Origin: a virus
Length of the DNA: 22,718 bases
IMG/VR virus record: IMGVR_UViG_3300042554_000610
Span: 1-22,718 of that record
Direction: 5' to 3' (one strand)
Both the position numbers and the translations under genes were made by a program. The notes beneath the pieces were generated by a model. The model ran no database searches and was not told the DNA's origin. It saw only the letters and a list, made by a program, of their open reading frames with translations. Below are positions 9,152-22,718 of the stretch, in pieces (the stretch's first letter is position 1; each line of letters begins with the position of its first letter).

Positions 9152-11695
9152 TTAGAATCCTGACAACTGGCCTAGTACCGTATAGGTCCCAGATGCATTA
9201 AGCACACTAAAAGTTAATGTATCAATTCTGTTAGCATTGGCTGTAGGCAAGGTATTGCCGGCCCAGTTTATGGTTTGTGCTACACCTCCAATCTGTACAG
9301 CATTGGCATAATAAGCAGTGGCACCTTGAACAATAACTAAGGTAATTGCAGTGGCATATCCGCTTGCTAAACTAAGATTGGCAAAGTTAGCTGTCCAATT
9401 AGCACTGGGCGTAGTGTGCCTAAAGATTTGGTTATTGGTACAATCATGTGTAACAACACCAGTGGCATTGGATAAACTAGTAAACGATTCATGAACACCG
9501 CTCATTTTACTAGTGCCGGTGAACGTAGGATTAGCAATAGTAGGGGAAGGTCCTACCGCTGGATTACTATCTACCCAAGCCGAACCAGTCCAAATGTATG
9601 TGTTACCATCATCAGTGTCATAGTAAAGTTGACCAGTTACCGGACTGGAGGGTGGTACGCTTTGAACTGCGGCTGCTGCTCGTGTCCATGCTGTATTTTG
9701 GAAGGTTCCGTCGCTGAATGTTATGCCGGGCCAACTAACAGGTGCCGGACTTACATCCATTGCAGTTGGTGGCAATTGTAAATTACCACCAATATCAAAA
9801 GTCCAAACTTTATTACCACCAGCATAACTCAGCGCAGAAATCTTAACATTGCCACTGTTCATCATGATGTTAAAGGCATCATTGAAGTCAGTGGCATTAG
9901 TGTCGGTACCTTGGATATAGATAAATCCAGAATTACCGCTTGTATGTGGGAACCCCAATGTAACTGCTTTATCTACTTCTGCTGAGGGCATTTCCATGCC
10001 AGATCTAACATAGTTACCGGTAATAGTATCTACTTTGAATAAAAATCTCTTGTCAATGTCTATGTCGGGTCTGAGCTGAATGGCATCACTTATACCGCCA
10101 ATGCTTGATCCGTAGATATTTCTACCAACTTGGATGTTGCCCGATTTCAACAAATTAGTATCGGAACGATAAGTTAAATCAACATCAGCTCTGGGATATT
10201 GAGCGGTAGTTCTGTTTTCGACAAATACCGGATAATAGGTAGTAGTTAAGCCATTGGTATCAACTATGTCGATCCTGTCAGTGGGTCCAGTAGCACCCAC
10301 ATTGCCAGTGATCCCAGTGGCACCTGTTAAACCAGTGGCTCCAATGGTGTATCCAGCATCTACAGAAATACCATCTGATCTTGTTAAGATTAGTCTTCCT
10401 GAACCGTTAATGCTAGCTGAGCTTAAGCCGACTCCGGTAGCTCCAGTAGTTCCTGTGGCTCCTTGTATGCCCTGTGCTCCTGGATTACCAGTAGCTCCAG
10501 TGGCACCACCTGGAGTTCCTGCAGGACCCACTGGTCCTGTTGCGCCCGTTGAACCAGCTCCAGTGGCTCCTGGCAGACCTTGCGGTCCTTGTATACCAGT
10601 GGCACCACGTTCTCCGGTAGCGCCAGTGGCTCCAGTAATGCCCTGCTGCCCTTGAGCACCAGTGGCACCTGTTAATCCTTGTAAACCAGCTGGTCCACTG
10701 GCACCAGTGGCGCCTGGTAATCCCGGTGATCCTTGTATACCAATGGGTCCGGTGCTGCCGGTAGCTCCAACAGGACCGCCTGGTCCTATGTTACCTTGTA
10801 TACCAGTGGCTCCAGTCAAACCGGTTGATCCTGTTAAGCCGGTGGCTCCTGTAGCCCCAATGTCACCAGTGGCACCTACTAGTCCAGAAGCACCTGTAGC
10901 TCCTTCTATACCTTGTGGTCCTACTATACCTTGTGCACCACTGAGGTCTGATACATATTGATAGCTGGTACCATTCCACAAATATAATCTACTGTTTTCA
11001 GGATCAGAAGCATAGTTGCCATTATCAATTATAGCAAACTGTCCTGCTGTGATATTGGCCGGCGATACATCTGCTGTAAGCGTGGCCACATTTACATAGG
11101 TTTTAGCAATACTGAATCCTAATCCAGTGGGTCCTGTAGCTCCAGTATTACCAGTCAAGCCAGTGGCACCTATGACTGTACCTGCATTGATACTGACATT
11201 ATCAGTCCTAGTCAATATCAAGTTACCCAACACAATATTAGCAGTGATGATATCTACACCACTTGCACCTACATTACCAGTGAGTCCGGTGGCTCCTACG
11301 TTACCAGTGAGTCCGGTGGCTCCTATGTTACCTGTTAGTCCGGTGGCACCAGTAGCACCACCAGGTGACCCAGGTAGTCCAGTGGCGCCTATATTTCCTG
11401 TTAGTCCAGTGGCACCAGTGGCACCACCAGGTGATCCAGCTGGACCAATGTTACCAGTGGCTCCAATTGGACCAATGTTACCTTGTAAGCCGGTAGCTCC
11501 AGCTGGCCCGGTAAGACCAGTGGCACCTGCCATGATAAGATTCCCACCGGGCGTAACACCATCATGTATACGCAGTGTACGATAAGTAGTATCTAAGGTG
11601 ATTTCACCTAAGGGACCAGTGTAGTTACTGCTTACCGCAGCATTGCCACGTTTTAACAGATATTGTTTGATCGTTACATTAGATATAGTAGCCAT
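9152..11695 (-). CDS. Large collagen-like tail fibre protein
   Basis: An 847-aa protein. The N-terminus ([20 protein letters not shown], then [17 protein letters not shown]) matches the short N-terminal domain shared by phage tropism-determinant-type fibres (LKRG...GE...L.IGDG pattern). Collagen-like Gly-X-Y segments, mostly GATGxTG, lie at about 57-150, 180-197, 256-430 and 458-475. They are broken by globular inserts, two of which are related ([20 protein letters not shown] and [20 protein letters not shown]). A beta-rich C-terminal region of roughly 370 residues includes [17 protein letters not shown], common in marine phage fibres. The ATG overlaps the upstream stop as TAATG, so the two are coupled. 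It is likely the main long fibre. The repeats make it prone to slippage and recombination. Confidence 0.85.
11271..11351 (-). repeat. 27-bp tandem repeat coding for G-x-y collagen units
   Basis: Three consecutive 27-bp units (11271-11297, 11298-11324, 11325-11351) encode NVGATGLTG / NIGATGLTG-type nonapeptides. The first two differ by one base, the third by several. Similar partial units recur downstream to about 11450. This recent duplication shows the collagen stalk changes length by unit gain or loss. Confidence 0.85.
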
Positions 11696-19575: not shown

Positions 19576-19788
19576 TCATCCCAAAAACCGTTTTTTAATG
19601 TCCGCCTGAATAGCTTTGACTGCTTGATTCCACCCATCGTCATCACTAACCCATTTCAACTTGTTTAATTCTAACACATAGTCTTCAACAAGTCTACGAA
19701 TAATGGCATTTGGATAAGCATCCCCGGGATATGTTAAATCCACATCCCGGGCTGCTTGTTGAGCTATACGTCTTGTTAAATCGTTCAT
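19576..19788 (-). CDS. Small protein downstream of the AAA+ gene, unknown function
   Basis: A 70-aa protein starting at ATG 19788, which overlaps the AAA+ stop as ATGA. This coupling decides the start over a frame extending to 19827. The sequence (MNDLTRRIAQQAARDVDLTY, then YVLELNKLKWVSDDDG) is helical and ends with a basic tail DIKKRFLG. Strict coupling to the ATPase suggests a small partner subunit, which is inference. No family is recognised. Confidence 0.7.
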   Translation of the reverse strand: MNDLTRRIAQQAARDVDLTYPGDAYPNAIIRRLVEDYVLELNKLKWVSDDDGWNQAVKAIQADIKKRFLG

Positions 19789-20819
19789 GCTGCCTTCATG
19801 CAAGTTGACTGAGCCAGTGCCTGCCACTTAGCAGGAAAGCTCTTACGTAAGTCTGCAATCTTAGTAGCCATACGCAAGCTCATTTCACGTAAACGACTTT
19901 GATGACGCTCCATGAACGCAATAACTTCTTGGTCCTCGCCCGCCTCAAAATCGTAGTCTGCAAACAAGTCGCCAGTACTGGCAATCTGTTTAATACGCAA
20001 TAGCTTGTCACGCATGGTGTCAAGTGTCAAGTCCAAGTAGTGACAGCGACTCTGTAAAGCGTCTAAGTGATCACGCAGTTTCTGCGACTTCATAGCATCA
20101 AACTTCAAATTGGTAATAAAAATTACCGAGCCATGAAAGTTAAAACTATCGGGAATACCTTCACGCTTGAGAGCTGCACTCTCACTAAGCCACGAAATCT
20201 TACGCTTCTTGCCAGAGTCAAGGGCACCCTTAAGTAAGTTGAGACTGACATCGTCTAACAAGATGCTGTCGCAGTCATCAAACACCAGCACACAGTTCTT
20301 GTCTGAGTACTTGTACAGAGTTTGGTAGAGACCAATTGGGGTAGCTGAACCCTTAACAACTTCTGCGCGAAGCCTCTTGCCAGCAATTTGATCCAAGAGT
20401 TGAGCCTTCTCAACTTCACGCTCAACGGTAAAGCTCTTGCCTACTCCCGGAGGGCCACTAACGATCATAGCACGAATGTCGCCTGAGATACATGCCTTAG
20501 CCATGTCATTGAGTATGTCAAAGCGTTCTGCAATTTCTGCAATACGCTCTTCATCAGTTTGAGTAAGGGCTTGAGCTTGAGCCACTACTTCACTCACAGC
20601 AGGAGCAGCGTCCTCACCAACGAACTCGTAGTCAGTGAATGCTGAGACTTTGATACGAATAATCTCGGGCATACCTGCAAAAGTACCACCATTCTTAACA
20701 GTAACATAACCACCAACATTGGGATTACCACTGGGTTGAAACTGCTTGACTAGTTCAAACACCTTGCCATCAGCTACAAAGTTACGATAGCTACCTGACT
20801 TAATACGTACTTGACTCAT
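19785..20819 (-). CDS. AAA+ ATPase heading a seven-gene operon
   Basis: A 344-aa protein from ATG 20819 (MSQVRIKSGSYRNFVADGKV), with GGAG 9 nt before it. Longer frames run through the promoter and are rejected. Residues 1-85 are a beta-rich domain. The AAA+ core has Walker A GPPGVGKS (122-129), Walker B VLVFDDCD (177-184) and a sensor 1-like VIFITN near 232-237. Arg and helical elements follow in the lid part (LDALQSRCHYLDLTLDTMRD). AAA+ proteins of this kind remodel proteins or load factors. It is not a T4 clamp loader (gp44) by length and motif order that I can see. The target is unknown; the small coupled gene downstream may be a partner. Confidence 0.85.
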   Translation of the reverse strand: MSQVRIKSGSYRNFVADGKVFELVKQFQPSGNPNVGGYVTVKNGGTFAGMPEIIRIKVSAFTDYEFVGEDAAPAVSEVVAQAQALTQTDEERIAEIAERFDILNDMAKACISGDIRAMIVSGPPGVGKSFTVEREVEKAQLLDQIAGKRLRAEVVKGSATPIGLYQTLYKYSDKNCVLVFDDCDSILLDDVSLNLLKGALDSGKKRKISWLSESAALKREGIPDSFNFHGSVIFITNLKFDAMKSQKLRDHLDALQSRCHYLDLTLDTMRDKLLRIKQIASTGDLFADYDFEAGEDQEVIAFMERHQSRLREMSLRMATKIADLRKSFPAKWQALAQSTCMKAA

Positions 20820-20852
20820 TGTGTGTCGCTCCGTGTTGTTTACTGTACCACT

Positions 20853-20881
20853 ATTATAGCTGAAATCAATAACCCAGTCAA
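20853..20881 (-). promoter_or_regulatory. Strong sigma70-type promoter of the AAA+ operon
   Basis: On the minus strand TTGACT (20881-20876), a 17-nt spacer and a perfect TATAAT (20858-20853). The ATG at 20819 follows 33 nt after the -10 box, with GGAG in the leader. The -35, spacer length and TATAATAG match the promoter at 17316-17344. Confidence 0.87.
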
Positions 20882-20900
20882 CTGGCGGGTTATTCCACAG

Positions 20901-20978
20901 TGTTGCTCGAATACAACTGCTTATTTTTTCAGCATTTTTCTTACTAGACTGCGGATCTTTTGTTGTATTCGAGCAACA
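20901..20978 (-). repeat. 17-bp perfect inverted repeat around the end of the 50-aa gene
   Basis: The arms TGTTGCTCGAATACAAC (20901-20917) and GTTGTATTCGAGCAACA (20962-20978) are exact complements separated by 44 nt. One arm lies in the coding end of the zinc-ribbon gene; the other follows its stop, 20 nt before the -35 box of the AAA+ operon. No T-run follows, so a simple terminator is unlikely. Confidence 0.9.
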
Positions 20979-21073
20979 TCTATCAAGGGCGGGTGTCCAG
21001 GACACCGTCCCTGTTGCCAGTCACATGCTGGGCTGTAGGGCTTATTGCACTGTGGGCATTTTGCTGTCTGCAT
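20921..21073 (-). CDS. Small zinc-ribbon-like protein (50 aa)
   Basis: A short frame of 50 codons, ATG 21073 to TAA 20921, overlapping the end of the SWIM-domain gene by 32 nt. It encodes MQTAKCPQCNKPYSPACDW followed by QQGRCPGHPP and a basic helix QKIRSLVRKMLKK. The Cys/His spacing (C6-P-Q-C9, C17, C24-P-G-H27) is typical of a small zinc ribbon. From memory, small proteins with CPxCxxxYSPxCDxQQGRCPxHPP occur in marine T4-like phages. An AGGGGA lies about 12 nt before the ATG. The cysteine pattern and Lys/Arg-rich end make a real gene much more likely than a chance frame. It could bind nucleic acid or protein; the function is unknown. Confidence 0.75.
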   Translation of the reverse strand: MQTAKCPQCNKPYSPACDWQQGRCPGHPPLIDVARIQQKIRSLVRKMLKK

Positions 21074-21380
21074 GACGGCATTTTCCCCTATAAGTATAGC
21101 CTGGACAACTACATGCCCAAGTGCCGTTGGCGCGAGTAAGGGTATATCGTTGCCCTTTTGAGCCTTCTACCATCACAGTATTGGGATCATTTTCTGCTAT
21201 TTCGCGCAGGATCGTGAATGTACGCCCACGTGAATCCCAGCGAATTGGCTTGCGAAAACGCTGAGCTACACTGGCACCCTCAGGCACATAAGCAATGATA
21301 TACTCCATGTTGTCGCTGACAAGATAGAGATTGTTAGCAGTGCTATCTGCCCACTTAGTTGTTTCGTGTACAATTTTCAT
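21042..21380 (-). CDS. SWIM zinc-finger protein
   Basis: A 112-aa protein with the SWIM motif CxC-x8-CxH at C90, C92, C101 and H103 (WACSCPGYTYRGKCRHA). The N-terminal part (VHETTKWADSTANNLYLVSD, YIIAYVPEGASVAQRF, RTFTILREIAEND) is beta-rich. SWIM fingers bind DNA or proteins and occur in recombination factors such as Shu2-type proteins and in some helicases. The ATG at 21380 lies 6 nt after a -10 box in a near-perfect sigma70 promoter, with no Shine-Dalgarno, so a leaderless mRNA is predicted. The end overlaps the 50-aa zinc-ribbon gene. Confidence 0.8.
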   Translation of the reverse strand: MKIVHETTKWADSTANNLYLVSDNMEYIIAYVPEGASVAQRFRKPIRWDSRGRTFTILREIAENDPNTVMVEGSKGQRYTLTRANGTWACSCPGYTYRGKCRHADSKMPTVQ

Positions 21381-21425: not shown

Positions 21426-21878
21426 TTATGCAACTACTTCAAATAGTGGGTTGTCGTTCAAGTATACTGGGCGTCCAAAACTGTAATCATATGTAAGTGC
21501 ATCATGACATACTATGTTTTGTTCTACTATATGGCGCAGATCTTCTCTGCCACATAATAAACGTTCACGACATAGTGCTACATTATCTGGCATAAGGTCC
21601 ACACCAAATATGGTACTGAGTGCTGTTTCAAAATCATGTCCATTTTCCAGTTTACGTATCAAAACTTCTCCTAGAAATTGGCCATCACCACAACTGTTAT
21701 CCAGAAAAGTTTTAGCAGGATCTGTAAACAGTTCCTCAGGTAACTGTTCGAGTATTTCCTGCACCAGTGGTGTGGGTGTAAACACTTCGCCAGTGGCCTT
21801 GACTCGCAATCGGTCACGGTCAATACCGCTCATGTAACTGCGATTGCGAATGTGGCTAATACACTTGTTAATGTCCAT
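21426..21878 (-). CDS. AdoMet-binding half of a putative N6-adenine methyltransferase
   Basis: A 150-aa protein from ATG 21878 (MDINKCISHIRNRSYMSGID); a TTG at 21896 is rejected. It has the pre-motif-I segment ATGEVFTPTPLVQEILEQL, motif I FLDNSCGDGQFLGEVLIRKL (AdoMet-binding) and the following acidic strand FGVDLMPDNVALCRERLL. The chain then ends at VYLNDNPLFEVVA with no (D/N)PPY catalytic motif. From memory, marine T4-like phages carry a protein of this sequence type and length (IRNRSYM-G-DRDRLRVKATGEVFTP). It overlaps the NPPY-containing upstream gene by 11 nt. It may be a non-catalytic partner, or the two may form one active enzyme. Confidence 0.8.
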   Translation of the reverse strand: MDINKCISHIRNRSYMSGIDRDRLRVKATGEVFTPTPLVQEILEQLPEELFTDPAKTFLDNSCGDGQFLGEVLIRKLENGHDFETALSTIFGVDLMPDNVALCRERLLCGREDLRHIVEQNIVCHDALTYDYSFGRPVYLNDNPLFEVVA

Positions 21879-22718
21879 AAGTAGGAAGACGCTCAATAAT
21901 AGCTTTACTGATTGTATGCTGATTATTCCTGGCTGTCAACATCTTTCTAACTTCTGCAACAATTTCATCTGATTGTAACCAATTTTTTAACGCCTGGGCT
22001 TCGTCTTTGGTTTGGCACTCAAAAGCAAATGTCCACATACTCCAAGGTTTCCCGGTATTAGCCAATATTGCACAGTTAAATTTACCAAGACTTGGTGTGT
22101 GATTCACTACTACAATATAAGGAGCTGTGGATTTCTTTCTGCTTTTATTGACTTTCTTTGCATTAACTTTCTTAAAGATAACTTGGTCATTCTTATGTAC
22201 TTTGAAAATAACTTCAAGACCATTGGGATCTTCTGCTCCCATGGCAATGGCTCCATCTCCTTTGATGGTTTGTAATCGTGGTCTTTCCGGATACAACAAT
22301 GGCATAGAATCCAATGGGTCAATGATGTCATCAACTTGATTATTAGTTGACTTACTTGCTAAGACATAATGTAAATTATCATAGGAAACACGAAAATGGT
22401 CACTGATATTTTCACTGATAAATGAACTGTGTTTACGAACACGAGAATTATGAAACTTTAATTTATTATGTGCACTTTCTAAATCCAATGGCATAACACA
22501 AGCCACTAGGTTACCCAGGTCCAGTGCTCGCTCGAAAAACTTGGCATACAACATGACCTGTCCATCTGTATACGGAGGATTCATCACCACACCATCAAAT
22601 TTCATATCTTCCTCAATTTCTGTAATAACATGACATCCAAGACTGTTGGCAATGTCTGTTTTATGTGCATGATCTGAGTACAGAGTAATCTGTTCAGGAT
22701 CAACTTGGTATGTGTGTA
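21868..22718 (-). CDS. Putative N6-adenine DNA methyltransferase (NPPY), N-terminus beyond window
   Basis: The frame is open to the right edge. At least 282 residues are visible, so the ATG at 22605 is internal. Motif IV MNPPYTDG, with the catalytic NPPY of amino-methyltransferases, lies about 45 residues into the visible part. It is preceded by a strand with ITLYSDHAHKTDIANSLGC, as in motif II-III regions. The C-terminal half (YIVVVNHTPSLGKFNCAILA, KPWSMWTFAFECQTKDEAQA) resembles the target-recognition part of Type IIG/Mod-like enzymes. The protein likely methylates adenine in phage DNA, perhaps to evade host restriction. Motif I must lie beyond the edge or be supplied by the partner gene downstream. 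Confidence 0.8.
   Translation of the reverse strand, partial: HTYQVDPEQITLYSDHAHKTDIANSLGCHVITEIEEDMKFDGVVMNPPYTDGQVMLYAKFFERALDLGNLVACVMPLDLESAHNKLKFHNSRVRKHSSFISENISDHFRVSYDNLHYVLASKSTNNQVDDIIDPLDSMPLLYPERPRLQTIKGDGAIAMGAEDPNGLEVIFKVHKNDQVIFKKVNAKKVNKSRKKSTAPYIVVVNHTPSLGKFNCAILANTGKPWSMWTFAFECQTKDEAQALKNWLQSDEIVAEVRKMLTARNNQHTISKAIIERLPTYGH

Follow-up and report, generated by a model that had tools for sequence, protein, structure and literature searches.

Do two overlapping genes at the end of a viral contig, one with the catalytic motif of an amino-methyltransferase and the other with its AdoMet-binding motifs, encode the two halves of a single enzyme? The question is posed by the IMG/VR record IMGVR_UViG_3300042554_000610, whose whole 22718-base contig was analysed (hereafter the window) and beyond whose right edge the 5' end of the upstream gene falls. 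We consider it probable that the two genes together make up one gamma-type DNA amino-methyltransferase of two subunits, split between motifs III and IV, and the methylated base is probably N6-adenine.

Gene pair at the right end of the contig

The pair and its motifs are located as follows.

22716-21868, minus strand: upstream gene, NPPY and putative target recognition; 282 aa visible, 5' end open
22581-22570, minus strand: motif IV NPPY of the upstream gene; NP invariant in alignment A1
21896-21426, minus strand: downstream gene, AdoMet-motif protein (X, I, II, III only); 156 aa from the first TTG
21774..21791, minus strand: motif X GEVFTP of the downstream gene; E37, F39, T40 invariant
21675..21701, minus strand: motif I DNSCGDGQF of the downstream gene; D66, G70, G72 invariant
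21591..21605, minus strand: motif II GVDLM of the downstream gene, from the homologue alignment
21495..21518, minus strand: motif III NIVCHDAL of the downstream gene; coding stops soon after, no NPPY

The original prediction had placed NPPY in the upstream gene and motif I, with no NPPY, in the downstream gene, and both assignments were confirmed by Pfam matches and conservation. The downstream protein matched Pfam N6_Mtase (E = 5e-5, above the cut-off) and PHROG 4376 (E = 4e-23), and the upstream protein matched Pfam Eco57I (E = 2.6e-4, below the Pfam cut-off). Because of these matches, and because the AdoMet-motif residues vary little or not at all among 25 diverse homologues, the division of motifs across the two genes is not a matter of chance. 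The downstream protein carries the gamma-class motif I (D/E-x-x-x-G-x-G-x-F) together with X, II and III, and the upstream protein carries the NPPY/F motif IV of the same class. The visible motifs occupy two chains, with the gene order inverted relative to the gamma-class order X-I-II-III-IV-TRD (the upstream start lying outside the record), and the beta-class order IV-TRD-X-I in one chain is found only in an Aeromonas phage fusion described below, not in the window. The original prediction had also regarded motif I before NPPY as the normal order, which holds for the alpha and gamma classes but not for the beta class, where the order is IV-I (PMC8868631).

The whole downstream ORF was read, and no NPPY follows motif III; the C-terminal end reads ...YDYSFGRPVYLNDNPLFEVVA. 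The downstream gene likely starts at the ATG at 21878 (150 aa) rather than at the first TTG, because the homologue in L012 begins at MSQDLPNIIDHIRNR, and the overlap between the two genes is probably 11 nt, not 29. A programmed frameshift between them was not supported, as the overlaps in close relatives (clade A, below) use more than one frame.

Conservation of the downstream protein and its NPPY neighbours

A single scan of IMG/VR with the downstream protein yielded 139 related loci, and 80 of them were retained for analysis. These fall into clade A (L002-L048), 46-86% identical to the window protein, and clade B (L049-L081), with an identity of about 40% and a resemblance to cyanophage proteins from cultured isolates (ACG-2014f, S-SKS1 and P-SSM2 among them). 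Besides the residues of motifs X and I listed above, V99, M102, D104 and N105 of the motif II region and L134 of motif III are invariant over the 25 diverse members, with A133 nearly so and Y136, Y138 and F140 following. The family profile aligned with the gamma-class enzyme CamA (7lni; E = 3e-8); the match begins at residue 23 and ends at F161, with which strand 4 (FDYIVGNPPY) opens. As the match to CamA extends only up to strand 4, the family corresponds to the portion of a gamma-type enzyme before motif IV. Pairwise alignments can also place the tail YDYSFGRPVY over FDVIVGNPPF, and the tail can accordingly be read as a degenerate motif IV instead of an end before strand 4; against this, many family members terminate at YSFE or diverge there. 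The C-terminal DNPLF of the downstream protein was likewise considered as a degenerate NPPY and rejected, since many clade A members show an LFE-type tail at this place. Such tails (NPLFEVVA, NGLFEFE; window 21426-21455) recall, by their appearance, sliding-clamp binding peptides.

The downstream protein is also matched by PHROG 11371 and 21201. In PHROG 11371 (383 positions), it matches the C-terminal end and the upstream protein weakly matches the N-terminal end, an architecture as in the Aeromonas fusion. These PHROGs (4376, 11371, 21201) are annotated as unknown function or plain DNA methyltransferase, whereas we propose a subunit of a split enzyme.

An NPPY-type gene was scored adjacent to the motif-I gene in 59 of the 80 loci; four more (L011, L014, L054, L060) have one that the scoring pattern missed, six (L058, L061, L063, L070, L074, L078) have a single gene in between, and 11 of the 80 begin too near a contig edge to show the neighbour. 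Wherever the flank is long enough, the motif-I gene thus nearly always adjoins an NPPY gene. In seven loci (L003, L023, L191, L051, L053, L056, L059), two or three tandem NPPY genes precede a single motif-I gene. The intervening gene of about 188 aa in six cyanophage-type loci (e.g., L061:2975-3544 and L074:3151-3717) reads 'GIDGRGIS...VIQCKFK', which by eye resembles a PD-(D/E)xK nuclease core, with no Pfam match. In L026 (2910-4010), the partner reads NPAF for NPPY and lacks motif I, beside an intact motif-I gene. This partner, and the fact that phages do carry gene fragments, could speak for a single methyltransferase gene that has decayed or been mis-assembled. Yet more than 100 contigs as well as sequenced phages share the architecture with the overlapping frames intact, and these conserved pairs already contradict such an explanation, to which we give hardly any credence.

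The neighbours differ in what precedes strand 4. Upstream genes of group i (L003, L005, L008, L012) hold an intact motif I, DPAIGGGQF; those of group ii have a Rossmann-like stretch with no motif I (VMFNVEF in L010, VLFNLEF in L039, NALNG in L018, GDPSGLH in L052); and those of group iii have nothing before strand 4 and start M-K-F-D-x-x-x-x-N-P-P-Y (L031, L042, L045, L048, P-SSM2). In the window, the 37 visible residues before MKFD resemble group ii L010 and L039, not group i. The upstream gene closest to that of the window is L010 (45% identity over 76 aa, E = 5e-18), which has kept motif X (FTPRPLIEEIL) and lost motif I. Because the visible residues match L010 and L039, the window upstream gene likely lacks motif I as well. 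The original prediction of an AdoMet-binding partner or a permuted enzyme is partly supported; the loss in L010 counts for it, although the upstream N-terminus of the window gene itself lies outside the record. If a split means that each protein lacks the motifs of the other, the downstream protein has no NPPY and the nearest upstream homologue no motif I. A plain scan of viral contigs found no relatives of the window upstream protein, and phage records gave no match to it at E 1e-5.

The four group i genes count against a split, because an intact upstream motif I would make the short protein redundant, and the original prediction had named, as its refutation, a complete motif I in the part of the upstream gene past the window edge, with homologues active alone; these relatives present the refuting case within the family. 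The upstream gene of the window could encode a conventional gamma-class methyltransferase, complete with a motif I that lies just past the record end, in which case the downstream gene would be an accessory or a relic. L012 favours this, since its short protein is 86% identical to that of the window and its upstream gene has DPAIGGGQF. However, the visible residues of the window align with group ii, conservation is stronger in the short protein than in its neighbour, and nearly all flanked loci retain the short protein beside an NPPY gene; we regard an ordinary enzyme as quite improbable here.

The N-terminal half of group i proteins is a paralogue of the motif-I protein (E about 1e-14 by profile; 32% identity), which fits another explanation, namely a heterodimer in which the upstream protein forms a fold by itself, with an altered N-terminal half as its AdoMet-binding part, and the short protein is a degenerate paralogue that aids stability or the binding of DNA, much as METTL14 supports METTL3. 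The full motif set of group i upstream genes, and a short-protein tail (GRPVY/GEPVG) that can be aligned with GNPPY, are consistent with it. In the usual pairs of this pseudo-enzyme type, the catalytic subunit retains both the AdoMet and the catalytic motifs. Unlike in such pairs, the short protein keeps motifs I-III and has no NPPY, and the minimal pairs described next offer no second AdoMet site; we consider the heterodimer unlikely.

Minimal pairs, a natural fusion and a conserved methionine

We also assembled a marine set with a cyanophage NPPY protein (A9) as the sole query, the motif-I gene not being used, and fetched 80 loci. The motif-I gene lies directly downstream in 79 of these, and the remaining locus (L282) is ended by the contig edge; 78 of the 79 pairs overlap in the +1 frame, the exception (L247) having a spacer. 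The marine NPPY genes begin directly before beta-strand 4, and the minimal partners start M-K/R-F. The distance from the previous in-frame stop to NPPY is at most 16 residues in 57 and at most 28 in 73 of the 79 genes, whereas in single-chain relatives (L008, L012, L108) motif I stands roughly 60-70 residues before NPPY. Minimal NPPY genes therefore have no room for a motif I, and it is in these marine pairs that each protein most clearly lacks the motifs of the other. Apart from the group iii loci, which are minimal pairs too, a search on the Aeromonas and gut side added L095, L180, L189, L191, L192 and L193, and in L182 and L187 the motif-I gene comes first. The split thus extends over several groups of phages, with either gene first.

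A permuted chain exists as well. In Aeromonas phages 65 and avDM6 and their relatives, a single chain has the motif order IV-TRD-X-I-II-III: it starts MIEDRSFDYVIMNPPY, has a putative recognition domain in the middle and closes with EVFTP...DPACGDGN...FGFDIVESN...CKDFLK. Both parts of this fusion occur as separate neighbouring genes in L095. The original prediction had offered an AdoMet-binding partner and a circularly permuted enzyme as alternatives, and among relatives each has a counterpart, the former in 79 of the 80 marine loci and the latter in the Aeromonas phages. AlphaFold2 gave a pLDDT of 47 for the fused chain when the alignment held few NPPY rows; with a better alignment, block-mean pLDDT was 84-92 for residues 1-40, 44-69 for residues 41-90 and 90-98 for residues 300-384. 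The model has strands 4-7 from the N-terminal part and strands 1-3 from the C-terminal part, i.e. the complement of a class I fold, at a pTM of 0.53; it is only partly confident, and its target-recognition part is unreliable. The fusion linker of Aeromonas phage 65 (L092:3001-4161) is wholly unlike those of L093 and L094, with both flanks matching, and looks like the product of two compensating frameshifts.

Minimal proteins begin at a methionine that also occurs, in frame, within longer upstream genes. In the window, this site comprises two features.

22605-22603, minus strand: in-frame ATG, Met38 of the visible fragment, before strand 4 'EEDMKFDGVVMNPPY'; putative internal start
22608..22614, minus strand: GAGGAAG, Shine-Dalgarno-like; GAGG to ATG 5 nt, duplex energy -5.6

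Among 36 directly paired genes, mostly non-minimal, a Met lies within 3 residues of strand 4 in 28 and within 10 residues in 35, compared with 3 and 12, respectively, of 43 bacterial Eco57I-type control genes (Fisher p about 5e-11, not to be taken literally as the sequences are related). The register of this Met shifts (MKFD, MKKQFD). Across the family, raw Shine-Dalgarno energies were -3.1, compared with -1.4 at other internal ATGs, and the signal was weak against synonymous shuffles (p = 0.016, on related sequences). We hypothesize that translation may also initiate internally at this Met.

Proposed enzyme, known systems and role in phages

In the two-subunit enzyme that we favour, strands 1-3 and, with motifs X, I, II and III, the AdoMet site would come from the downstream protein, and strands 4-7, the NPPY of strand 4 and the target-recognition domain from the upstream protein, so that the two could assemble into one class I fold and rebuild a single active site. 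For the minimal pairs, this reading is hard to avoid. It is less clear for groups i and ii, where strands 1-3 are, or may be, present in the upstream protein as well; that of the window would bear an N-terminal Rossmann-like remnant, predicted to lack motif I like L010. Two ways out may be envisaged for these groups, a heterodimer of the pseudo-enzyme type or a shorter upstream product, and translation from the conserved in-frame Met would be one way to make room for the downstream subunit. A more elaborate version, possible though doubtful, is a modular system in which one AdoMet subunit is common to swappable NPPY/recognition subunits, full-length and internally initiated minimal forms dock with it, and the series of forms reflects a route of duplication, fission and fusion.

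The N-terminal half of group i is, as noted, a paralogue of the motif-I protein. All four forms would be explained if, after a duplication, the upstream copy had its motif I eroded and then lost its N-terminal half, and the parts later re-fused in a new order; the inferred direction would run from intact through eroded and absent to re-fused. A review counts independent halves in related species as evidence for fission and fusion and refers to DNA methyltransferases for duplication, the rival model (PMC3320104). The series of intact, eroded, absent and re-fused forms makes a fission-and-fusion origin of permuted methyltransferases testable.

Split and permuted DNA methyltransferases are known already. 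The N-terminal parts of the gamma-class enzymes CamA and M.BseCI (7qw5) align with downstream motifs X, I, II and III, and the NPPY half has its weak match to the gamma-type Eco57I family; CamA and M.BseCI are single chains, whereas the window pair consists of two polypeptides, cut between III and IV, in inverted gene order. With METTL3/METTL14, the pair shares two methyltransferase-related subunits with degenerate motifs, but there one subunit holds both the AdoMet and the catalytic motifs, which the minimal pairs divide. The permuted order itself is not new, because beta-class amino-methyltransferases such as CcrM have the order IV-I (PMC8868631). The window gene pair and the Aeromonas fusion resemble that class in running IV-TRD-X-I-II-III, and differ from it in that both halves are akin to the gamma-type N6_Mtase/Eco57I families and that the window order is spread over two genes. 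M.AquI is a naturally split C5-methyltransferase cut between motif VIII and the TRD (cited in PMC5944983). The proposed pair resembles it in dividing one DNA methyltransferase into complementary parts over two genes, and differs in being of the amino-methyltransferase type and cut between III and IV. The open-access literature searched contained no description of an amino-methyltransferase split between III and IV, which does not prove absence, nor did we find a widespread phage amino-methyltransferase family with divided motifs described. If the two-subunit reading is true, 'hypothetical proteins' of cyanophages and of Aeromonas, Vibrio and gut phages would be subunits of modification enzymes, and an AdoMet subunit common to interchangeable recognition subunits would amount to a modular enzyme ready for use.

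The likely role is modification of phage DNA against host restriction. Some relatives may be restriction-modification enzymes carried by phages, because their NPPY chain is fused to a helicase or nuclease or is type IIG-like. L006, L018 and L064 have a ResIII helicase fused to the NPPY chain; in these three and L095, an NPPY domain forms the C-terminal end of a ResIII protein of 1000-1300 aa, followed by the motif-I gene, and in L095 (PADLOC type IIG) a minimal NPPY gene stands between the two. The partners in a Klebsiella phage (L083:990-2135) and a Vibrio phage (L088:798-2456), the latter also matching PADLOC PD-T4-3, have an N-terminal GIY-YIG (LEM-3-like) domain, GIY-YIG being listed for P0003 and P0007. 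No nuclease or helicase part of a type IIG/ISP-like enzyme was seen in the window, where the start of the upstream chain lies outside the record.

Other genes of the window were also annotated. Beside the methyltransferase pair, a small gene (21042-21380) has a near-threshold SWIM zinc-finger match (E = 8e-4), and an AAA ATPase gene (19785-21005) matches PHROG 1250 (function unknown; E = 1.5e-83). A collagen-repeat tail fibre of 847 aa is encoded at 9152-11695, with an N-terminal Mtd_N match just below the cut-off.
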